Shown one piece after another: positions 3,570 through 62,082 of a DNA stretch of 64,000 nt. How positions within the stretch are numbered: position 1 is the first letter of the stretch; each line of letters starts with the position of its first letter. The translations under genes and the position numbers were made by a program. Origin of the DNA: a virus. Below the pieces are notes generated by a model, which searched no databases, was not told where the DNA came from, and saw nothing but the letters and a program-made list of their open reading frames with translations. The stretch covers positions 62,001 to 126,000 of IMG/VR virus record IMGVR_UViG_3300034111_001103. One strand, 5' to 3'.

Positions 3570-3878
3570 TTATAATTTTATTGTTCCTATAATTAATTCA
3601 CTTACATAAATATCTGGATAATTGATTATATAATATGACCCACTTTTAAATCCATAGTAACCAATTATTACTTTATCTAAAACTTCTGTTTTAGAAAGAC
3701 CTTCATAGGAAAAAGAAGTATGAACTTTGCCATTAGAATCTACCACTTTATCCTTATAACTAATAGTTTTCCAAAATAATCCATATTTCTTCTCTTGTAA
3801 AAAATAAACCCTTTCCATTTTTTCAGTATTAGTATTAAACATATCTTGTATAATATACCTAATTTTAATTTTTTTCAT
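3570..3878 (-). CDS. First gene of the left leftward unit, hypothetical
   Basis: A 102-residue protein with an alternating hydrophobic and Tyr-rich pattern (GYYGFKSGSYYIINYPDIY near residues 73-91). Its function is unknown. It is the promoter-proximal gene of the left leftward block. Its start faces the divergent region, and a TATATTTG sequence on the minus strand (3948-3941) may be its -7 element. Confidence 0.6.
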   Translation of the reverse strand: MKKIKIRYIIQDMFNTNTEKMERVYFLQEKKYGLFWKTISYKDKVVDSNGKVHTSFSYEGLSKTEVLDKVIIGYYGFKSGSYYIINYPDIYVSELIIGTIKL

Positions 3879-4055
3879 ATTAATTATGATTTTTATTTTA
3901 TATTTAAAACCCCAAAGATAATACTTTTATACTATATATACAAATATATTTATACTTTTCTTTGTTTTTATCCCCCTATACTTAGTTTTTATAAAAAGAG
4001 ACCCCCCCTACCCCATTTTACTTTTTTTTTGTTTTTTGAAAATGTTAAATGTGTA
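3879..4055. promoter_or_regulatory. Divergent promoter region between the two transcription blocks
   Basis: This is the only place in the left part where transcription diverges. It is very AT-rich and has long T tracts. On the minus strand TATATTTG (3948-3941) matches the Bacteroidota -7 consensus TAnnTTTG, 63 bases before the 3878 start, but no clear TTTG -33 box was found at the usual distance. On the plus strand TTTG occurs at 3961-3964 without a good -7 partner. The short rightward reading frame across it has low-complexity composition and is not believable as a gene. Confidence 0.45.
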
Positions 4056-15210: not shown

Positions 15211-15381
15211 ATGGAAATTATAATAATAACAATATTTGCATTAATTCTACTATATTATCATTACAAACCTTTTTTAGAAAAACAACAAAATGGGGATTGG
15301 TTACTATGGTATAATGATCATGAAAAAATAATATCTGGTAGAAAATATATTTTAATTAAAAAAAGACATAAATATGACTAA
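15211..15381 (+). CDS. Small membrane-anchored protein
   Basis: A 56-residue protein starting MEIIIITIFALILLYYHYKP. The ATG at 15211, one base after the previous stop, is chosen over an upstream in-frame ATG inside that gene. One N-terminal helix is followed by a basic tail (IKKRHKYD) that should lie in the cytoplasm. Function unknown. Confidence 0.55.
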   Translation: MEIIIITIFALILLYYHYKPFLEKQQNGDWLLWYNDHEKIISGRKYILIKKRHKYD

Positions 15382-19986: not shown

Positions 19987-20571
19987 ATGATAAAATTATA
20001 TAAAGTAAACAATAAAGAAATAGGTATGCAAAAATTAACTTTTATAGAGTTAATCTTAATAAATATACCTATATCTATAGTACTTTTCTTATTATTTATA
20101 GCAATAGGTTCTTCAAACCCTAAAATAATAACTAAAACAACAACAAACACTACAATAATACATGATACTTTACAACAATTAGTTGTGCTCAGATCAGGTC
20201 TTACAGAAATAACCCTAGATAGAAATAAAAATATAGCTAAATTTTGCTATAATCCAGGTAATATAAGACCAGGAAATAAACAAATAGATGCTTTAGCAAT
20301 AGGCACAATAAGCTCTATAAATGGAGAATTTTTATACTTTCCCAGTGAAGAACAAGGATTTAAAGCTCTTGAAATTCTTCTACAAACTAAATATGCAGAA
20401 AATACTATACAAGAATGTATACAAAAATATGCTCCTCCTTGTGAAAACAATACCTCTAAATATATACAAGATATTTGTAACAAACTAAAAAAACCTTCTA
20501 CTACTAAGATAAAAGACTTAGATATTAAAAAACTATCTAAAGAAATAGCTATTATAGAAGGGTATTATTAA
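19987..20571 (+). CDS. Membrane-anchored lysozyme-like protein (NPGNIR family)
   Basis: The 194-residue protein has one N-terminal membrane helix (residues ~18-41) and a periplasmic domain starting at the NPGNIRPG motif (89-96). A YFPSEEQGFKALEILLQTKY segment and CIQKYAPPCENNTSKYI follow. These three landmarks define a phage lysozyme-like family (structural protein P5/lytic transglycosylase type) that cuts peptidoglycan. The anchor suggests a signal-arrest-release or inner-membrane-tethered lysin. No holin is obvious, but tiny membrane proteins are plentiful. It starts after a terminator, so it has its own expression. The exact cleavage chemistry is not determined. Confidence 0.78.
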   Translation: MIKLYKVNNKEIGMQKLTFIELILINIPISIVLFLLFIAIGSSNPKIITKTTTNTTIIHDTLQQLVVLRSGLTEITLDRNKNIAKFCYNPGNIRPGNKQIDALAIGTISSINGEFLYFPSEEQGFKALEILLQTKYAENTIQECIQKYAPPCENNTSKYIQDICNKLKKPSTTKIKDLDIKKLSKEIAIIEGYY

Positions 20572-20591
20572 TAAAAATAAAACTTATAAAA

Positions 20592-20960
20592 ATGGAAAAA
20601 TACTTTTTATCTTATGATTTAGCTTCAGAAATAGAAAAATTAGGATTTAATGAATCTTGTTTAGGTAGATGGGTAATTGTTACAGAATGGGAAAACCCTA
20701 CAGGAGAAATTATATTTCAATTGGGAAGAGAAAAAGACAATAACAATACTACTAGATTTCAATATATAGCACCACTTTATCAACAAGTAATAGATTGGTT
20801 TGAAAAAGAACATAATATATTCATAGGTAGAACTTGTTATGATGATGGTAAAACTCCTAAAAGATGGGTATATCATGTAGATAGTTATTATGTACAAGAA
20901 CAATTTTATGATGGGGCTATAAGATATGCAATAGATAAAATTAAAAATACACAATTATGA
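20592..20960 (+). CDS. Conserved phage hypothetical protein
   Basis: A 122-residue protein with a Trp-rich middle (LGRWVIVTEWENPTGE), QQVIDWFEKEHNIFI and a C-terminal YYVQEQFYDGAIRYAIDKI. The 'VIDWFREKHNI' pattern is common in small proteins of Bacteroidota phages, with no known role. It overlaps the next gene by four bases (ATGA). Confidence 0.65.
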   Translation: MEKYFLSYDLASEIEKLGFNESCLGRWVIVTEWENPTGEIIFQLGREKDNNNTTRFQYIAPLYQQVIDWFEKEHNIFIGRTCYDDGKTPKRWVYHVDSYYVQEQFYDGAIRYAIDKIKNTQL

Positions 20961-21205
20961 ATTATTTAGTAATAAAAGATGATACAATAATACAAGTTTG
21001 TACTTCTGTAGAAGATTTATTAGAATATCTAGAAGTAAATGTTACTGATAAAGGAATTGTAAAAATTGGTAATAATAATTTACCTACTACTTATAATATG
21101 AAAGAATATACTAAAGAAGAAATAATATCAGATATTATAAAATATAAATTAAAAACTATAGAATCTGTGTTAAAAATTGGTATTTATAAATTAGAAAGAA
21201 TATAA
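20957..21205 (+). CDS. Hypothetical protein
   Basis: An 82-residue protein (MNYLVIKDDTIIQVCTSVED at its start) with an N-terminal beta hairpin and helices (VEDLLEYLEV, EEIISDIIKYKL). No family is known. Coupled to the gene upstream by an ATGA overlap. Confidence 0.6.
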   Translation: MNYLVIKDDTIIQVCTSVEDLLEYLEVNVTDKGIVKIGNNNLPTTYNMKEYTKEEIISDIIKYKLKTIESVLKIGIYKLERI

Positions 21206-21210
21206 AAATT

Positions 21211-21501
21211 ATGATAGATATAAATAAAGAAGCAGAAGAATATGCTAAACAATTTGATTATCCTGAAGATTCTGCTCCATCAACTTGTTTTATAGCAGGA
21301 GCAAACTCAAAATATGTAAAAGAACAAATAATACAAGCTAAAATAGATGTATTAGATAATTGTTTAGCTGATATGTATCTTTATTCTAGTTTTGAAAATG
21401 GATTTGAACAATATTCTGATGCTTATTATAATTTAGAAAATTCATATAAAAAAAGTTTAAATAAACTTAGAGAAGAATTAAAACAATTACAAGATGTATA
21501 A
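21211..21501 (+). CDS. Conserved phage hypothetical protein
   Basis: A 96-residue helical protein that begins with a segment (IDINKEAEEYAKQF, then TCFIAGANSKYVKEQIIQAKI) I know from many Bacteroidota phage proteins: an A-x-x-Y 'FIAGAxS' helix pair followed by a coiled coil. The function is unknown. It overlaps the next gene by eight bases. Confidence 0.65.
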   Translation: MIDINKEAEEYAKQFDYPEDSAPSTCFIAGANSKYVKEQIIQAKIDVLDNCLADMYLYSSFENGFEQYSDAYYNLENSYKKSLNKLREELKQLQDV

Positions 21502-21742
21502 AGACAAATATATAACATCAGAAAAACTAGAAGGTACATTTAGACAAGATTTACCAATAGGTAATTTTTTAATACAAGGTTATTGTAGATTTGGTATAGA
21601 AGTAGGAAAGCCTATAGATTTATTTAGTCATCTTATAAAAGGAGTTAGACCAGATTGTTGGACTTCTATAGTTAAAGAAATAAATGGAGATATTATTAAG
21701 ACAGAAAATAGTATTTATAAGATTACAATAAAAGAAAAATAA
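21494..21742 (+). CDS. Hypothetical protein
   Basis: An 82-residue protein (MYKDKYITSEKLEGTFRQDL at its start), beta-rich, with no family recognised. It ends one base before the first DGR target gene, so it may be transcribed with it. Confidence 0.6.
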   Translation: MYKDKYITSEKLEGTFRQDLPIGNFLIQGYCRFGIEVGKPIDLFSHLIKGVRPDCWTSIVKEINGDIIKTENSIYKITIKEK

Positions 21743-21743
21743 A

Positions 21744-22328
21744 ATGACACAAAAAATTAGTAGAGTTAATCTCAAAGTCATCTATGACAATGTTTGTCAA
21801 GATTGGAAAAATATAATAACTGATATGTTATTATGGAATGTAGAAAGTTCTATAGAAATAGAAGAAGAAACTATCTTAAAAGGATATAATCAAGCAAATT
21901 CTGAACAAAAAATATTATTAGAAAAATACTTTAAAATAAACACACCTAAAGACTTAACAAAAACATTAAAAACTTGGAAAGATGTGTTAAAATATGCTAA
22001 AGAAAAAGGATATAACTTTAAGTTACCTTATTCTGAAAAAACTCAAGTAAAAGAAGAAATATCTTTAAATGCTTTATGTAAAATACATTTATTAGCTAAA
22101 GTATTTAATGAAGATTGGACAGCAAATTTTAAAGACTCAACTCAATACAAATATTATCCTTGGTTTGAAAGAAAAAGTTCTGGGTGGGTCTTTAGTGTTG
22201 TTTATTATCGGGCTTCTGTTTCTTCTAGTGGCTGGGGTGCTCTTTCATACTTTAAAAGTTCAGAAATAGTAAATTATATCGGTAACAATAAAGAATTTGT
22301 AAATATTTATAATGAATATTTACAATAA
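21744..22328 (+). CDS. DGR target protein 1 (variable lectin-like C-terminus)
   Basis: The 194-residue protein has a helical N-terminus (residues ~1-75) and then TWKDVLKYAKEKGYNF, a segment shared with target 2. A KYYPWFERKSSGWVFSV region runs into a variable stretch and a conserved end, SSEIVNYIGNNKEFVNIYN. This C-terminal domain is one I know from Bacteroidota phages (KYYPYF...SSG..., then the FKSSE-type end) and is a DGR variable domain of C-type-lectin-like character. VR1 (22179-22253) lies inside it, and TR1 is 95 bases downstream. Diversified residues would be on the ligand-binding face. What it binds is unknown. Confidence 0.85.
   Translation: MTQKISRVNLKVIYDNVCQDWKNIITDMLLWNVESSIEIEEETILKGYNQANSEQKILLEKYFKINTPKDLTKTLKTWKDVLKYAKEKGYNFKLPYSEKTQVKEEISLNALCKIHLLAKVFNEDWTANFKDSTQYKYYPWFERKSSGWVFSVVYYRASVSSSGWGALSYFKSSEIVNYIGNNKEFVNIYNEYLQ
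22179..22253 (+). repeat. DGR variable repeat VR1
   Basis: This 75-base stretch lies in frame within target 1 and matches TR1 (22349-22420). Counted by hand over 24 aligned codons, about 18 differences fall at an A in the template and only one (TAT to TAC) does not. VR1 also has one extra codon. Adenine-specific changes are the mark of DGR mutagenesis. Confidence 0.88.
22299..22323. repeat. Hairpin just downstream of VR1
   Basis: GTAAATATT (22299-22307) pairs perfectly with AATATTTAC (22315-22323) with a seven-base loop. It lies within the last codons of target 1, about 45 bases after VR1. In the Bordetella BPP-1 DGR a hairpin at the equivalent place helps target recognition, so this may be its counterpart. 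Confidence 0.5.
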
Positions 22329-22348
22329 AGTTAATTATTTTATATTAT

Positions 22349-22420
22349 TCTAGGTAGGTCTTTAATGATGTTAATTATCAGAATTCTAATTCTAATAGCT
22401 AGAGTACTCTAACATATTTT
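22349..22420 (+). repeat. DGR template repeat TR1
   Basis: This 72-base non-coding stretch is rich in AAT, AGT and ACT codon-like units, as template repeats are, and contains TAG in the target's frame (so it is not translated). It lies between target 1 and the reverse transcriptase gene and matches VR1 apart from A positions. Its RNA would be copied into mutagenised cDNA. Confidence 0.88.
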
Positions 22421-22519
22421 GTATTTAAAGAAATAATTAACTTATCCTATAGGATAAAAATCAAGAAATATTTTAAAAAGTGTTTGGTAGGTCTATTCTC
22501 GAAGAACATTTAAATTAAT
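22421..22519 (+). other. DGR RNA segment between TR1 and the RT gene
   Basis: No gene. It contains a perfect 16-base palindrome, TTATCCTATAGGATAA (22442-22457), and a GGTAGGTCT (~22486) that repeats a piece of TR1. DGR template RNAs extend past TR and fold for cDNA priming, so this is probably part of that RNA. Confidence 0.45.
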
Positions 22520-23470
22520 ATGAAAAGAATAGGAAATTTATACAATCAAATATGTGATAGAAATAATATAGAATTAGCTATAAAAAATTCACAAAAAAGT
22601 AAGAAGAAAAATAAGAATGTTATAGAATTTAACAAAAATTATGAAAATAATTTAGAAATTTTAATAAATTTACTAAAAGAAGAAAAATATGTTATTTCAG
22701 ACTATAAAATAAAATATATTAAAGATGGAAATAAAATAAGGGAGTTAAAGATACTCCCTTATTTTCCAGATAGAATTATACAACATTGTATATTAAATAT
22801 AATATCTTTTACGTTATTAAAAACTTTTCCTACTAATACTTATTCAGCAATTAAAAATAGAGGTATACATAAGTGTTTGTACAAGTTAAAAAGTATAATA
22901 AATAAGTATGACTATTGTTTAAAACTGGATATTAAAAAATATTATGAAAATATAGATAATGACATATTAAAATCTTTTCTTTTAAAAAAATTTAAAGATA
23001 AACAATTATTAGATTTACTTTTTCATATAATAGACAAAGAAAAGGGATGTGTAATTGGCTCTTATTTGTCACAATGGTTTGGTAATTTTTATTTATCTTA
23101 TTTTATACACTATTTAAATGATAAAAAAGATATTAAAGTTTTAGTTTATATGGATGATATTGTTATATTAGGTAATAGTAAACAATTATTGTATGATTTA
23201 AAGTTAGAAATAATAGAATATTTAAGAACTAAACTAAAGTTAGAATTAAGTAATCATCAAGTATTTTCTCTTACACAAGGTATAGATTTTTTAGGCTACA
23301 AAACATTTAAAACACACATTTTAATAAGGAAAAGAATAAAATTAAATTTTATTAAAATGATTAAAACAAATTATAATGAAAAGTCAATTAATAGTTATTT
23401 AGGTTGGCTTTGCCACGGAAATACATTAAATTTACAACAAAAATACATTAAAAATGCAAAAAACAATTAA
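22520..23470 (+). CDS. DGR reverse transcriptase
   Basis: The 316-residue protein has the reverse transcriptase motifs in order: FPDRIIQHCILNII, LKLDIKKYYENIDNDIL (motif A with D), GCVIGSYLSQWFGNFYLSY (motif with the G-x-x-x-S-Q signature of DGR enzymes, ~residue 180), VLVYMDDIVILG (YMDD, ~211), and GIDFLGYKTF. It lacks intron maturase or HNH domains. It copies the template RNAs with errors at adenines. It lies between TR1 and target 2 and overlaps target 2 by 17 bases. No Avd-like accessory gene was recognised next to it. Both TR/VR pairs would be served by this one enzyme. Confidence 0.92.
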   Translation: MKRIGNLYNQICDRNNIELAIKNSQKSKKKNKNVIEFNKNYENNLEILINLLKEEKYVISDYKIKYIKDGNKIRELKILPYFPDRIIQHCILNIISFTLLKTFPTNTYSAIKNRGIHKCLYKLKSIINKYDYCLKLDIKKYYENIDNDILKSFLLKKFKDKQLLDLLFHIIDKEKGCVIGSYLSQWFGNFYLSYFIHYLNDKKDIKVLVYMDDIVILGNSKQLLYDLKLEIIEYLRTKLKLELSNHQVFSLTQGIDFLGYKTFKTHILIRKRIKLNFIKMIKTNYNEKSINSYLGWLCHGNTLNLQQKYIKNAKNN

Positions 23471-23948
23471 TTTAACAAAAAAAGAAGCTATTAAATTTTA
23501 TAATAGTGCACAAGATCAAGGATTTAAAGATTTATTAGAAACAAATTTTGGTAAAGATTTCTGGAAACAAGAAATTACAGATTTAGTATATGATTTAGAT
23601 TCTTTAAAAGAATATTGTAAAAATAACAATATATCTTTTTCTTTACCTTATCTTTGTGATACTCAAGATAGTTTAGAAAAAACATTAAATGCTACTTACA
23701 TATTAGCAAAAGTTGCTAAAATATATAATAAAGGAACTATTTTAAATTGGAAAAACAATAATGAATACAAGTATTTACCTTATTTATATTTTTCTGGTGG
23801 TTCTGGGGTTGCTGCTGGTGTTTCTTTTTATTGGGATTCTGATTTGTTTGCTTCTTATTGTTTGTACTATAAAAACTCAAATTTAAGCACAAAATCTTAT
23901 AATAACTTTAAAAAATATTGGGAAGATTATTGGGGAGTAGAACAATAA
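23454..23948 (+). CDS. DGR target protein 2 (variable lectin-like C-terminus)
   Basis: The 164-residue protein is a shorter relative of target 1: LDSLKEYCKNNNISFSLPY matches the VLKYAKEKGYNFKLPY region, YKYLPYLYFSGGSGVA matches the KYYPWF region, and both end in a helical tail. Its N-terminal helical part is shorter. VR2 (23793-23867) lies in the Gly/Ser/Tyr-rich stretch and TR2 is 107 bases beyond it. It probably displays a diversified binding surface. It could form a hetero-oligomer with target 1 or serve as an alternative. Confidence 0.85.
   Translation: MQKTINLTKKEAIKFYNSAQDQGFKDLLETNFGKDFWKQEITDLVYDLDSLKEYCKNNNISFSLPYLCDTQDSLEKTLNATYILAKVAKIYNKGTILNWKNNNEYKYLPYLYFSGGSGVAAGVSFYWDSDLFASYCLYYKNSNLSTKSYNNFKKYWEDYWGVEQ
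23793..23867 (+). repeat. DGR variable repeat VR2
   Basis: This 75-base segment in target 2 matches TR2 (23975-24046). By hand, about 18 of 19 differences fall at template A positions; the exception is a C-to-T. VR2 has one codon more than TR2, as VR1 has relative to TR1. Confidence 0.88.
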
Positions 23949-23974
23949 TATAAAAAAGAGATAAATAAATATTT

Positions 23975-24046
23975 TCTAGTAGTTCTAGGGTTACTAATGA
24001 TTCTAATAATTGGAATTCTAATTTGAATACTCCTAATTGTTTAAAC
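23975..24046 (+). repeat. DGR template repeat TR2
   Basis: This 72-base AAT- and AGT-rich stretch lies in the non-coding space after target 2 and matches VR2 except at adenines. It is separate from TR1 in sequence and place, so each target has its own template. A terminator at 24116 ends the cassette. Confidence 0.88.
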
Positions 24047-24115
24047 TTAATTATAATACAAACAATTTTATTTATCTTAACCTATTGGTTAAAAAAACAA
24101 GCAAAATCTTAAAAC

Positions 24116-24154
24116 AAATCCCTTAGTACCTTTAGTGTGGAAAAGGGATTTTTT
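24116..24154 (+). terminator. Intrinsic terminator of the DGR cassette
   Basis: AAATCCCTT (24116-24124) pairs with AAGGGATTT (24143-24151), with an 18-base loop, followed by a T run. It closes the transcript containing TR2. Confidence 0.8.
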
Positions 24155-24182
24155 AATTAAGTACAAAAATATAAAGTAAAAT

Positions 24183-24368
24183 ATGGAATTACCAATATTA
24201 ATACCTACAATATATGTAGATACTCCAGAACATAAAAAAACTATTCAATATGGGAAATATTTAGTAGTAAGAAAAGATGGTAAAACTCACTTAGAAACAT
24301 TTAATGGAACTGGATGGGCTTATAATCATAATACTATTATAGCTTATTATTTACCTAAAATTAATTAA
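24183..24368 (+). CDS. Small hypothetical protein
   Basis: A 61-residue beta-rich protein with YGKYLVVRKDGKTHLETFNG and a C-terminal IIAYYLPKIN. This shape, a small Trp-containing fold followed by 'ITHYYLP', is common in short Bacteroidota phage proteins of unknown function. It begins after the DGR terminator. Confidence 0.65.
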   Translation: MELPILIPTIYVDTPEHKKTIQYGKYLVVRKDGKTHLETFNGTGWAYNHNTIIAYYLPKIN

Positions 24369-24370
24369 AA

Positions 24371-24661
24371 ATGAATTATTTAGATACATTAAAACAAAAA
24401 AAATCAATAGATACAGAGTATGAAACTCAAAAAGAGTTATTATTACAACAAATAACTAACATAAATACTCTATATAGTAAATATAATGGAGATTTTTTAA
24501 AAGAATTAAGTCAATTTACTAAAGATTATGAAGAAAGAAGAAAAATTAAATTGGGACAACTTCTCACTGAAATTTCATCCAACTTGGAGAAACAAAATGA
24601 AAAAAATAGTGGAAAGCCCTCAATTATTTCAGATATTCCAAGAACTGAAGAAGCAATCTAG
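24371..24661 (+). CDS. Small helical protein overlapping the UDG-like gene
   Basis: A 96-residue helical protein (MNYLDTLKQKKSIDTEYETQ at its start). It shares 134 bases with the next gene in another frame. Residues 1-52 lie outside the overlap. Both frames look real: this one has a continuous helical pattern and a normal leader two bases after the previous stop. No family known. Confidence 0.5.
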   Translation: MNYLDTLKQKKSIDTEYETQKELLLQQITNINTLYSKYNGDFLKELSQFTKDYEERRKIKLGQLLTEISSNLEKQNEKNSGKPSIISDIPRTEEAI

Positions 24662-25217
24662 CCAAGGAAACAAATTATATCCTCAAAGTAAAGATATATT
24701 TGAATTTTTAAATTTTGATATATCTAAACTAAAAGTATTAATCTTAGGAGATATTCCTCATACCTATAGTAATGGGATATGGTTAGATTGTAGTAATAAC
24801 ACAATAGTTTCTAAAGATTTAGAATATTTTTATAATAATATAGAAAAAGATCTTTATAACCTAGATTTTAACTATGATAGAAACAATAAAAGTTTAGAAT
24901 ATCTTAAGGAACAAGGGGTTATATTATCTTCTTGTTCTTTAGTATCTAATAATATAGAACTTTTTAAGCTTTTTTGGAAGTTAATGTTTGAAGAAATCTT
25001 TAACACACAAGCAGGTTTACATATTATAGCTGTAGGAAAAGAAGCTCAAAAAATATTAGTAGAGAACTCAGAACCTTTTATACACTATACTTATTACCTA
25101 GAATCTTGGGATAAAACTCTAGAATATCCTAAATTTAATACTTTTTCTATTATAAATAAACTATTAGAAAAAGATAATGGTAAAGAATTTACAATACAAT
25201 GGCTAAAAACAATTTAA
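24528..25217 (+). CDS. Uracil-DNA-glycosylase-like protein with altered active site
   Basis: The 229-residue protein aligns by eye with family 1 uracil-DNA glycosylases: LNWDNFSLKFHPTW at the N-terminus, KLYPQSKDIFEFLNF, then KVLILGDIPHTYSNGIWLDC where the family has the ILGQDPYH water-activating loop, and LEYLKEQGVILSSCSLV for the W-x-x-QGVLLLN segment. The aspartate of GQDPYH is shifted or lost, and the C-terminal HPSP loop is not visible (HYTYYLESW instead). It may therefore bind DNA without normal catalysis, or act on another base, or block the host enzyme. crAss-like phages commonly encode UDG. The start at 24528 keeps the family's N-terminus. Confidence 0.7.
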   Translation: MKKEEKLNWDNFSLKFHPTWRNKMKKIVESPQLFQIFQELKKQSSQGNKLYPQSKDIFEFLNFDISKLKVLILGDIPHTYSNGIWLDCSNNTIVSKDLEYFYNNIEKDLYNLDFNYDRNNKSLEYLKEQGVILSSCSLVSNNIELFKLFWKLMFEEIFNTQAGLHIIAVGKEAQKILVENSEPFIHYTYYLESWDKTLEYPKFNTFSIINKLLEKDNGKEFTIQWLKTI

Positions 25218-25369
25218 AACATCTATTATTAATACCTTGTATAATATTTATAACTCTAATAATGAAAGATTTGACAAATATTCCTTTAGTAAGAGATTGG
25301 TTATATTTTATATTATTAGAGTTTTTCTTACAAGTATATTATAATAGAATAGTAAAAGAAGATTTATAA
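25199..25369 (+). CDS. Tiny two-pass membrane protein
   Basis: A 56-residue protein (MAKNNLKHLLLIPCIIFITL at its start, second hydrophobic part DWLYFILLEFFLQVYY). It overlaps the end of the UDG-like gene by 19 bases, so translation may be coupled. Function unknown. Confidence 0.55.
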   Translation: MAKNNLKHLLLIPCIIFITLIMKDLTNIPLVRDWLYFILLEFFLQVYYNRIVKEDL

Positions 25370-25388
25370 ATAATAAAATAAATAAAAA

Positions 25389-25694
25389 ATGAAACAAGTA
25401 AATATAAAAAAACAAAAAATAGTATTAACAGGATATTTATTTAATATATTACCTGGAATTTTAATAACAGATGATCATAAAGAACAATTTGAGTATCATT
25501 TTGAAAAAAAAGATATATTAGATATTATACTAGATAATATTTCTGACTATAACAGTAAAAAAACAGTAACTTTAGATAAGTTGACAAATCAAGAAATTAA
25601 CAAAGCTGTTTATATTTGTCAACAAATAGTTCAAGATGTAGACTATGCTAACAATTTATTTGCTTTGAGTAAAAAATATAGAGGTTTATTATAA
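25389..25694 (+). CDS. Hypothetical protein
   Basis: A 101-residue protein with an N-terminal strand part (KKQKIVLTGYLFNILPGILI) and a helical C-terminus (INKAVYICQQIVQDVDYANN). No family is recognised. Its stop overlaps the ATG of the next gene by one base. Confidence 0.6.
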   Translation: MKQVNIKKQKIVLTGYLFNILPGILITDDHKEQFEYHFEKKDILDIILDNISDYNSKKTVTLDKLTNQEINKAVYICQQIVQDVDYANNLFALSKKYRGLL

Positions 25695-26245
25695 TGAAAA
25701 CTATATTTTCAGATAAATCAAAGATAATTGACCTTTGGATAGAACAAAAACAAGATTTTGCTGGGACTCCTTTAAGTGTAATAACAGATAGTAGTATAAA
25801 ACAAAGAAGATTATTCTTTAAAGGAGATACTATTTATAGTTATAGAGAATCTTATCCTTTAGCTAGATTATTAGGAGATAAGATATATTTAAGAGAGGAA
25901 AATTATAGTAGAACAACAAGTAAACAAAAACTTTGTATACAAAGTAGGGCTTTAAAATATAATAAAAAAATAATATTTTCAGATGATTTGAAAAATGAAA
26001 ATATTAAAGATAAAAAATTACAAATTGCTTTAGAAAAATTATTAAAAGCTAGACTTTGGAAAGATTATTATATTTATGCTATTTCTAATTTAATAGCAAA
26101 TAATGAAAATAATCTTATAACTAAATCTAAATTTCCTTTATTATTTGATGAAAAACATGAAAAAGTAAAACAAATGTTATTTTCTCAAGATAATGAAACA
26201 GTTAATTTAGCAATAAAAATTATAAAACAAGAAAAACTAATATAA
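25694..26245 (+). CDS. Hypothetical protein with C-terminal SxDxETxxLA motif
   Basis: A 183-residue protein. The first half is basic (RLFFKGDTIYSYRESYPL, KQKLCIQSRALKYN). The C-terminal 30 residues contain MLFSQDNETVNLAIKII, which fits a motif found in several proteins of this window. It may be a helical protein-protein interaction tail. No enzyme motif is visible. Confidence 0.6.
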   Translation: MKTIFSDKSKIIDLWIEQKQDFAGTPLSVITDSSIKQRRLFFKGDTIYSYRESYPLARLLGDKIYLREENYSRTTSKQKLCIQSRALKYNKKIIFSDDLKNENIKDKKLQIALEKLLKARLWKDYYIYAISNLIANNENNLITKSKFPLLFDEKHEKVKQMLFSQDNETVNLAIKIIKQEKLI

Positions 26246-26608: not shown

Positions 26609-26678
26609 AGTCAGGTGGCGTAAGGGAAACGCAGTCTCCACAAAGAAAGAAAGCAGGTTTGAATCCTTGTCCTGACTA
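26609..26678 (+). tRNA. tRNA-like element, degenerate or unusual
   Basis: AGTCAGG (26609-26615) pairs with CCTGACT (26671-26677) as a seven-base acceptor stem with an A discriminator. GCGT/ACGC (26618-26632) makes a D stem with a GGG-containing loop. A T arm CA-GG/CC-T-TG around TTTGAAT has a bulge. The anticodon arm is not formed: GTCTC and AAAGA do not pair, and no U33 is in place. So no amino acid can be assigned. It could be a decayed tRNA, an unusual one, or a tRNA mimic that host enzymes recognise. Confidence 0.45.
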
Positions 26679-26692
26679 CAAAAAATAAAAAA

Positions 26693-43159: not shown

Positions 43160-44143
43160 ATGAATTTACCACAAAGAGAACAGACAAACACAGAAAAGAA
43201 ATTATATGTAGGGTATGGAGAATCTACATTAGTAGGAATTAATCCTACAAAAGAAGAACTTATGACATTATTAGGCATAGATAATGAAGAAACTATTGCT
43301 AAATTTAAAGATCCTGAATATACAGGAGAAACTACAGAAGGAGATAAATACTTCAGATTAGCTTTTTATGTTAGAAATACAAGAACAGAACAAATAGATC
43401 AATTGAGTTTTCAAGTAACAGACAAAGAAAGAGTATCTAAAGAAGGTAAACCAGAATGGGTTAATCAATTGGGAGCTAATCAATGGGCTATAACAGAAGA
43501 TGAATTATGGGATAATTTTAAATCTTTTAGTAAAGTATTAAGTTGGAAAAATGTAGATGGTAGTGTTACAGAAAAATATAATGCTGGAGCTAAACCAGAA
43601 AAAGTAGATAATTTAGGAGATAAAGTATTTAGAAAAGCTTTAGAAGGAGAAGTTGCTGTATATAGCTTTATGATTAATATGTTTAATTTAGATATATATA
43701 GTCAAGATTTAAATCTTTTATTAGATATACCTACTATGCTAAAAGGAAACTTTAAATCACTAAGAAAGACTCTAATGGACATCAGATTTGATGTTAGTGG
43801 AAATGAAAAAACTGTAGTATGTTCTTATGGAGTTAAGTTGAAAGATGATGGAACTCCTGTACAAACTGTTTATAACAGAGCATTTTTACCTGGATATATG
43901 TTTAAAAATGTAAAAGCTTATAATCTAGACCCTACTAAATTAGCTTCTTTAGTACAAGTTAAAGAAGCTAAATCTAGAAAAATTACTCCAGTAGAAACAT
44001 TTTTAATAGACACTATGGATGAAATAAATGGATTTAGAAAAAGTAGCTATTTCTTACCACAGGAAATAGATATTTATGACTCTTCAAAAAACTTTTTAGC
44101 TTCTGGAGCAGTTGTAGCTAGTAGTACAAGTGATGATTATTAG
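43160..44143 (+). CDS. Possible ssDNA-binding protein of crAss-like type
   Basis: A 327-residue protein. The central part is rich in strands (DKYFRLAFYVRNTRTEQID, VVCSYGVKLKDDGTPVQTVY) and the last residues are SSTSDDY, an acidic and flexible tail as in single-stranded-DNA-binding proteins. It has its own transcript with a strong terminator after it and an AT-rich promoter-like stretch before it, as expected for an abundant protein. It lies between the polymerase and the replicative helicase. The identity as an SSB is inferred from this and not from a motif. Confidence 0.55.
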   Translation: MNLPQREQTNTEKKLYVGYGESTLVGINPTKEELMTLLGIDNEETIAKFKDPEYTGETTEGDKYFRLAFYVRNTRTEQIDQLSFQVTDKERVSKEGKPEWVNQLGANQWAITEDELWDNFKSFSKVLSWKNVDGSVTEKYNAGAKPEKVDNLGDKVFRKALEGEVAVYSFMINMFNLDIYSQDLNLLLDIPTMLKGNFKSLRKTLMDIRFDVSGNEKTVVCSYGVKLKDDGTPVQTVYNRAFLPGYMFKNVKAYNLDPTKLASLVQVKEAKSRKITPVETFLIDTMDEINGFRKSSYFLPQEIDIYDSSKNFLASGAVVASSTSDDY

Positions 44144-60834: not shown

Positions 60835-62082
60835 ATGGATAAAATTTGTGGAATTTATAAAATAACTAGTCCTTCTAATAGAGTATATATTGGACAATCT
60901 AGAAATTACAATAAAAGAATAAATGGATATAAAAAATATAATTGTAAGGGACAACCAAAATTATATAATTCTTTAAAAAAATATGGTTTTAAAAATCATA
61001 TAGTTGAATTAGTTCATGAATTAACTTTAGATATTGATCAAAAAGATTTAAATTATTGGGAACTTTTTTATTATAATAAATATAAAAATGAAGGTTTTCA
61101 TTTATTAAATTTAAGAGAATGTGGTGCTAATGGTAAATTTTCAGAAGAATCTCGATTAAAAATGAGCATTTCTGGTAAAAATAAAATAATAACAGAAGAA
61201 CATAAAAGAAATATGGGGTTAGCTCAAAAAGGCAGAAAACATACTGAAGAAACTAAAAAGAAAATGAGTGCCTGGCAAAAAGGAACTATTTTAGGTACAG
61301 GTAAACCTATTTTAAAACTTGATTTAAATATGAATTTAATAAAAGAATATGCTTCTGTAACTCATGCTCAAAGAGAAGAAAATATACCAAAACAAAATAT
61401 AACAGAATGTTGTAAGAAAAATTTACAAAAATTAAAAACAAAAATTAGAAATAAAACAAATAAATTTACATGTAGAGGGTTTATTTGGGAATATAAAAAC
61501 AAAGATAATATGAAAGAAATAAGTGAAACAGGTTATTGGAATGGAGAAACAGCTCATATTCATCATGTACATTGTAAAGAACTAAGTAAATGGATATGTG
61601 AGTTTTTAGAAGAAAATGTAGGTCTAGATTGTCCTATAAGAGATCTGGCATGTGGATTGGGGAATTATCTTAGAGATTTAGATAATGAAGGTTTTATAAA
61701 TTTAGCAGGATTTGAAGCTGATCTTCCAAAACATAAAGTATTTGATAATATTTTACAACAAGATTTAACTATACCTTTTACTATATCTCCTAAAGGAGTA
61801 GTTATAAGTCTTGAATGTGGAGAACATATTAATCAAATATATATGGATAAATATATAGACAATATATGTAATAATTGTAATAATTATCTTATTATGTCTT
61901 GGGCTATAAGAGGGCAAGAAGGATTTGGTCATGTTAATTGTCTTGACAATCATGAAGTTATACCATTAATAGAAGAAAAGGGTTTTAAATTAATGGAAAA
62001 AGAAACAGAGGAAGTTAGAAATATAGATCTTTCAGAAGCTCCTTGGTTTAAGAATACATTATTAATATTTAAAAAAGTATAG
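60835..62082 (+). CDS. GIY-YIG homing endonuclease fused in frame to a methyltransferase
   Basis: Residues 1-~95 are a GIY-YIG domain (CGIYKITSPSNRVYIGQSRN with the Arg on the helix). NUMOD3 repeats come next (SEESRLKMSISGK, EEHKRNMGLAQKGRKHTEET), and a NUMOD1-like part (~160-222) ends in CRGFIWEYKN. Then, without a stop, the class I methyltransferase starts: METGYWNGE-like sequence after M226, with AHIHHVHCKELSKWICEFLE, IRDLACGLGNYLRDLDNEGF and GVVISLECGEHINQIY. M226 (ATG at 61510-61512) is the likely original start of the methyltransferase. The nuclease gene may have been inserted ahead of it and its stop lost, or translation may restart at M226. Confidence 0.8.
   Translation: MDKICGIYKITSPSNRVYIGQSRNYNKRINGYKKYNCKGQPKLYNSLKKYGFKNHIVELVHELTLDIDQKDLNYWELFYYNKYKNEGFHLLNLRECGANGKFSEESRLKMSISGKNKIITEEHKRNMGLAQKGRKHTEETKKKMSAWQKGTILGTGKPILKLDLNMNLIKEYASVTHAQREENIPKQNITECCKKNLQKLKTKIRNKTNKFTCRGFIWEYKNKDNMKEISETGYWNGETAHIHHVHCKELSKWICEFLEENVGLDCPIRDLACGLGNYLRDLDNEGFINLAGFEADLPKHKVFDNILQQDLTIPFTISPKGVVISLECGEHINQIYMDKYIDNICNNCNNYLIMSWAIRGQEGFGHVNCLDNHEVIPLIEEKGFKLMEKETEEVRNIDLSEAPWFKNTLLIFKKV

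Follow-up and report, generated by a model that had tools for sequence, protein, structure and literature searches.

The window analysed in the present study is a stretch of 64,000 nt that covers positions 62,001 to 126,000 of the viral record IMGVR_UViG_3300034111_001103 (168,934 bp in total), and positions in the DGR are given in window numbering unless another record is named. On the plus strand, target gene 1 (21744-22328, 194 aa) carries the variable repeat VR1 (22178-22250) in its C-terminal part and is followed by the template repeat TR1 (core 22348-22417), which is enclosed by the two arms of a closing stem (22329-22340 and 22431-22442). The gene of the DGR reverse transcriptase (RT, 316 aa) occupies 22520-23470, and the start of target gene 2 (23454-23948, 164 aa) overlaps its end. 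The second target holds VR2 (23790-23868), and TR2 (core 23972-24047) lies behind it within a closing stem of its own (23959-23970 and 24066-24077). Thus both templates are intergenic and near the RT, and both variable repeats lie in a coding gene towards its 3' end, as looked for in a DGR. Small ORFs surround the element, which belongs to a block that also holds replication genes (a Sak4-like annealing protein, a DNA polymerase and a ribonucleotide reductase). Portal and head genes are on the other strand elsewhere in the record, and the portal protein is closest to that of Leptolyngbya phage Lbo-JY46, followed by those of crAss-like phages. Some further features of the record were recorded in passing. 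A tRNA-like sequence with matching ends GTCAGG/CCTGAC and a T-loop-like GTTTGAATC was seen at 26609-26680, for which ARAGORN makes no call. In the whole record of the phage, two adjacent giant ORFs of 3143 and 4717 aa on the minus strand (G000:C1:124767-148366) are reminiscent of the virion RNA polymerase genes of crAss-like phages; the record appears to begin and end with the same 44 bases (1-44 and 168891-168934), and a further occurrence of its last 100 bases lies near 43294.

The two variable repeats differ from their templates almost only at template adenines. The alignment of VR1 with TR1 spans 70 bases and contains 18 mismatches, of which 17 stand at a template A (hypergeometric P 2e-10); that of VR2 with TR2 spans 76 bases and contains 19, of which 18 stand at a template A (hypergeometric P 5e-12). 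This confirms the sequence-only reading, which had counted about 18 differences at template adenines and one other in each pair. Apart from the adenines, each pair shows over its 70-76 bases one substitution and one codon indel, and in neither pair does the variable repeat carry an adenine opposite a non-A template base. Both variable repeats are longer than their own templates by one codon (+3 nt), which suggests a 3-nt slippage during cDNA synthesis or homing. An unbiased A-tolerant scan at every offset and in both roles yielded only VR1/TR1 and VR2/TR2 in the 12 kb around the RT. The same scan of the whole 168,934-bp record, on both strands and with a spacing within 2.5 kb, again gave only these two pairs, and a T-for-A control scan of the whole record at the same spacing gave zero matches. 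In the record, TR1 and TR2 have exactly one good partner each, which is their own variable repeat; the cross-alignments VR1/TR2 and VR2/TR1 score 28-30, compared with 98 for the true pairs. Judged by these alignments, TR1 and TR2 are different sequences that each match only their own target. The earlier claims of two distinct templates, and of one RT with two independent template-target pairs, are therefore upheld, as these scans of the record found only two pairs, with one DGR-type RT between them.

TR1 contains two TAG codons in the frame of the target, both of which are TGG in VR1, so that an unmutated copy of TR1 in VR1 would truncate target 1. Recoding of TAG was considered for these codons and rejected, since TAG terminates 14 of 128 long ORFs and so serves as a stop. 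Pattern scans of IMG/VR for variants of the TR1/VR1 and TR2/VR2 sequences returned this phage only, together with two chance matches (L326 and L327). One further record (G001, also L002) was rejected as a population variant because it is 100% identical to the window phage over 53.6 kb. As a single sequence variant of the phage was found, ongoing mutation is invisible in these data, and the activity of the DGR is one that we infer from the purity of the A-restriction.

In profile searches, the window RT matched RVT_1 (E 1e-14) and the reverse transcriptase family phrog_1423 (E 8e-90). The hallmarks of DGR RTs are GxxxSQ in place of GxxxSP and a catalytic YxDD, and the alignment with 22 relatives places IGSYLSQ and YMDD at these motifs of the window RT. 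It is the only RT of its family in the whole record. The protein is divergent, since it departs from its relatives at 31 of 115 positions that are otherwise nearly invariant, compared with 1-4 such positions in seven other RTs, and it forms a very long branch; its reading frame, catalytic DD and GxxxSQ are intact.

To collect relatives, the targets and the RT were used as queries against IMG/VR and GTDB genomes, which gave several hundred related loci; relatives of target 1 were met in 69 loci with related targets in viral contigs. These loci come from metagenomic contigs, and counts of loci are not counts of independent species. Clustering of the RTs at about 95% identity in an earlier-fetched part of the loci gave 203 clusters, the window not counted, with the layouts VR-VR-TR-RT in 138, VR-VR-VR-TR-RT in 21 and VR-TR-RT in 27, and with no pair in reach in 10. 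The two template-target pairs had been described as rare, and this is borne out by the relatives, as nearly all of about 200 related RT clusters have a single template, usually serving two tandem targets.

A few relatives resemble the window. The 94-kb contig L090 has the layout VR-TR-RT-VR-TR, with 15 A-mismatches and zero others in each pair, and carries a single RT of the window RT's family, which is 56% identical to the window RT. The 89-kb contig L337 holds three complete cassettes of target, template and scaffold (within L337:3361-6245), of which one precedes the RT and two follow it; the mismatches of their TR-VR pairs, 16, 16 and 19 in number, all stand at a template A. In L323, a template scaffold lies shortly before the RT, and a complete pair follows the RT. 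L255 and L312 each have a pair before the RT and another target after it, and the contig end falls inside the second variable repeat, which may be a hypervariable site that breaks assembly. A different layout, VR-TR ... VR-TR-RT, occurs in L144 and L145, where both pairs are upstream of the RT and each has a scaffold; the pairs of L144 are at L144:903-1304 and 3580-3987, its 25-kb contig contains one RT, and it is placed outside the window's RT clade. Except for L144 and L145, the multi-template layouts belong to the nearest relatives of the window RT. The RTs of these phages, including that of the window, form one group with an SH-aLRT of 96, or 98 without the long window branch, in quick trees built with no bootstrap and without L337, which was found later. 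Several of the multi-template phages have a target 2 that begins directly next to the stop of the RT or overlaps it. Separately, the locus at L023:3717-5440 has a single template and variable repeats that flank the RT; the downstream repeat belongs to a short ORF close to the end of the contig, and this arrangement looks like an intermediate layout.

An Avd or another accessory protein is common in DGRs and is not required by the definition used here. Searches of the record of the window phage with PF05635 and PF22296 gave no match, in agreement with the earlier statement that no Avd gene is seen. The same statement had called this atypical, which is wrong for this RT lineage, as none of nine related records passes the model cut-off for Avd (PF22296). 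What most relatives have instead is a protein of about 100 aa, whose start lies near the RT stop or overlaps it; it was counted in 183 of 214 relatives, and four further, divergent cases were recognised by eye. It corresponds to phrog_19665, of unknown function (for example L137:4945-5247), has no match in Pfam and NCBIfam, and was modelled by AlphaFold with a pLDDT of 86, for which Foldseek gave no usable PDB match. We regard this protein as a candidate accessory protein in place of Avd. A search for it in the record of the window phage, the L090 contig and the L337 stretch did not find it, and in these three phages a second target occupies its usual position. It is also absent from the gut crAss-like DGR stretches that carry the window RT's family.

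Both templates of the window are accompanied by a structured RNA element, here called the scaffold. The closing stem of TR1 forms 12 of 12 pairs and that of TR2 11 of 12, in contrast to 7-8 of 12 when the arms are crossed between TR1 and TR2. Directly 3' of each stem come a hairpin and an A-run, and a search of the 64-kb window for a stem, hairpin and A-run found the TR1 and TR2 sites only (eight shuffles, 0-2 each). Further 3' is a second hairpin with a strongly conserved internal loop, YTRGUA ... GAA, present in 41 of 45 loci against a first-half background of 5%. At TR1, the scaffold (22433-22518) comprises hairpin 1 at 22443-22456, the A-run and hairpin 2 at 22478-22511; at TR2 (24074-24157), hairpin 1 lies at 24078-24091 and hairpin 2 at 24116-24152, and the latter is followed by T's and might also act as a terminator. 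Because most family members have a bulged G in the closing stem, ungapped scoring of the whole family understated it, and the stem was hence scored in register. Its inner nine positions were paired in 88% of cells in 43 relatives, versus 67% with the arms exchanged between loci (maximum 73% in 1000 exchanges). The two hairpins gave 87 double-change cells in 41 relatives outside the multi-template clade; shuffling gave 23.2, and sliding never more than 20.

A covariance model, R1, was built from these 41 loci. It gave one match in each of 51 further single-template loci, some of which are closely related to training-set loci or come from overlapping contigs, and so are not fully independent of them. 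Two matches each were obtained in L144, L145, L090 and L323, three in L337, and one each in the truncated L255 and L312. In an unfiltered search of the window from 20000 to 26000, the TR2 scaffold ranked first with 23.1 bits and the TR1 scaffold second with 20.3, and the next hit scored 8.7. With default filters on the whole record, the TR2 scaffold was found (E 0.006), the TR1 scaffold was missed, and one coding stretch at 15260 scored 19.8 bits. At the modest level of 20-23 bits, the window scaffolds are taken to be divergent members of the scaffold family. Thus a structured RNA lies downstream of both templates, by the R1 matches in the window and the covariation in relatives; Rfam holds no match to it. 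In each of seven DGRs of crAss-like or gut phages, R1 also gave one match where TR and RT meet, and phage Perkons showed a marginal one (E 0.026) at this junction. The model further served to reject second pairs suggested by the scanner in three loci with one R1 scaffold each: that of L246 sits in a tandem-repeat stretch, and those of L137 and L204 are paralogous coding parts of tandem targets.

Both target proteins match phrog_11581, a family of unknown function, target 1 with E 2e-13 and target 2 weakly with E 5e-4. They had been described as lectin-like, a label that nothing here bears out. A search of the targets against Pfam and NCBIfam gave no lectin or other match, and the AlphaFold model of target 1 (pLDDT 82 overall, confident in part of the helical region, about 59-75 and thus weak in the variable repeat) found no match in the PDB by Foldseek and VIA-align; the targets may still have a lectin fold. 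Their relationships among the multi-template phages cross the RT. Target 2 of the window, which lies downstream of the RT, has as its orthologue the upstream target of L312, with 52% identity over 162 aa and 149 bits; it is more distant from the upstream targets of L337 and L255. The best template match of TR2 is likewise in L312, namely TR1. The three targets of L337 are most like, in turn, the upstream targets of L255 and L312, the upstream target of L090, and the downstream targets of L090 and L323. As targets and templates are orthologous across the two sides, a target and its template appear to have travelled together and have changed sides of the RT, so that such cassettes seem to move as units around it.

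In our judgement it is highly probable that the locus is a DGR with one RT for two self-contained cassettes, and that each cassette consists of a target gene, a template repeat and a structured RNA scaffold. An element that worked formerly, with an RT since inactive and both pairs left as relics, is an unlikely explanation. The divergence of the RT at 31 of 115 conserved sites and its very long branch speak for it, but the frame and the catalytic motifs are intact, and relics change at all bases, whereas each pair here has only one non-A substitution beside its codon indel. In comparison, pairs 2 and 3 of the phages Lera and ct1yV3, which their authors suspect no longer work, are reported with 3 and 10 non-A changes (PMC12386605).

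The position of TR2 outside the usual place between target and RT could mean that this template is decayed or passive, with TR1 alone in use and VR2 a relic or edited by TR1. We consider this very improbable. A decayed TR2 without transcription had been named at the outset as the finding that would speak against two working pairs; its closing stem, both hairpins and its orthology to L312 TR1 mark TR2 as no decayed copy. It also keeps the AGUA/GAA motif and scores above TR1 with R1, VR2 has no match to TR1, and complete templates downstream of the RT occur in L090, L323 and L337 as well. Since the target-template modules look portable, TR2 might alternatively be served by another RT, from a second DGR in the genome, from the host or from a co-infecting element. 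There is little chance of this, as the record has only one RT of the family and the L090 contig repeats the layout with a single RT of this family. Metagenomic contigs do break or join at repeats, but an assembly artefact that joined two DGRs has a negligible probability, given that the same kind of layout recurs with different sequences in L090 and L337, contigs of other metagenomes, and that several of these phages have a target 2 whose start adjoins or overlaps the RT stop.

The reading of one RT with two cassettes starts from what is directly observed: A-restricted pairs, a scaffold in both templates with covariation in its family, a multi-template layout in related phages, and orthology of cassettes across the RT. 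A mechanism may be proposed as follows. Both template RNAs would be produced, and each transcript would fold so that the 12-bp stem closes the template, with the two hairpins next to it. The RT would then recognise the shared 3' scaffold, a presumed counterpart of the folded spacer 3' of TR in phage BPP-1, which recruits bRT-Avd and in which an adenine primes cDNA synthesis (PMC12875486). By the same analogy, priming may take place at the invariant A-run that follows hairpin 1; cDNA would be primed near the scaffold and the enclosed template copied with errors at A. If the RT recognises any scaffold-bearing template, the specificity of homing comes from TR-VR homology, so each cDNA would home only to the variable repeat that shares its non-A sequence. 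The two small target proteins, presumably binding proteins, would thus diversify independently. Recognition of the scaffold by the RT is, by analogy with BPP-1, most likely the reason that target-template cassettes can be added or swapped. As a wider proposal, towards which we lean only slightly, this phage lineage has turned the DGR into a multi-cassette machine, where cassettes independent of each other (two here and, in L337, three) are gained, swapped and traded around one RT. This enzyme would do without Avd and without the usual accessory protein of the lineage, because it would recognise a conserved RNA scaffold rather than the template, and it would hypermutate several small proteins independently.

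Among known systems, the Bordetella phage BPP-1 DGR shares with the window an RT with YMDD and the A-restricted transfer from TR to VR; unlike the window, it has one template and one variable repeat and needs Avd. The Bacteroidota phage and prophage DGRs, which make up most of L013-L324, have a homologous RT (about 40-48% identity), phrog_11581 targets and the same template scaffold, but their one template usually serves two or three tandem variable repeats upstream of the RT, and the accessory ORF that overlaps the RT end in most of them is missing in the window. Crassvirales DGRs such as cr52_1, cr60_1 and cr10_1 have the same RT family and one R1 scaffold each at the TR-RT junction, whereas they carry one template and one variable repeat in a larger protein, mostly annotated as a tail protein. 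The Zeta crAss-like phages Lera and ct1yV3, likewise of the Crassvirales, have several (three) TR-VR pairs in one DGR; as reported, they carry Avd and diversify tail-fibre proteins, while the window phage is without Avd and has small stand-alone targets and two clean pairs (PMC12386605). The accessible part of that report (PMC12386605) describes no shared RNA scaffold for them, in contrast to the templates of the window. In a genome survey, 271 of 948 DGRs had several variable repeats, and 216 of those had one template only; its two-template example, Stenotrophomonas SKA14, has six variable repeats, and the accessible part of the survey describes neither paired cassettes nor a scaffold there (PMC6642488). 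Within the literature found, a clade with clean extra pairs, a covarying scaffold common to all templates, the swapping of cassettes and a three-template case with clean pairs may be undescribed; the extensive 2018 classification of DGRs (Wu et al., NAR) lay outside this comparison, so precedents are possible.

The present findings suggest that a single DGR RT is able to operate with two or three different templates in parallel, and they indicate an RNA element that would enable it. The conserved scaffold, absent from Rfam, offers a direct handle on the choice of template by DGR RTs that lack Avd, and a natural and compact multi-template system would be a useful start for targeted hypermutation tools for use in laboratory strains. 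As the targets are small, free-standing and located among replication genes, what else such phages diversify, apart from tail fibres, becomes a testable question.
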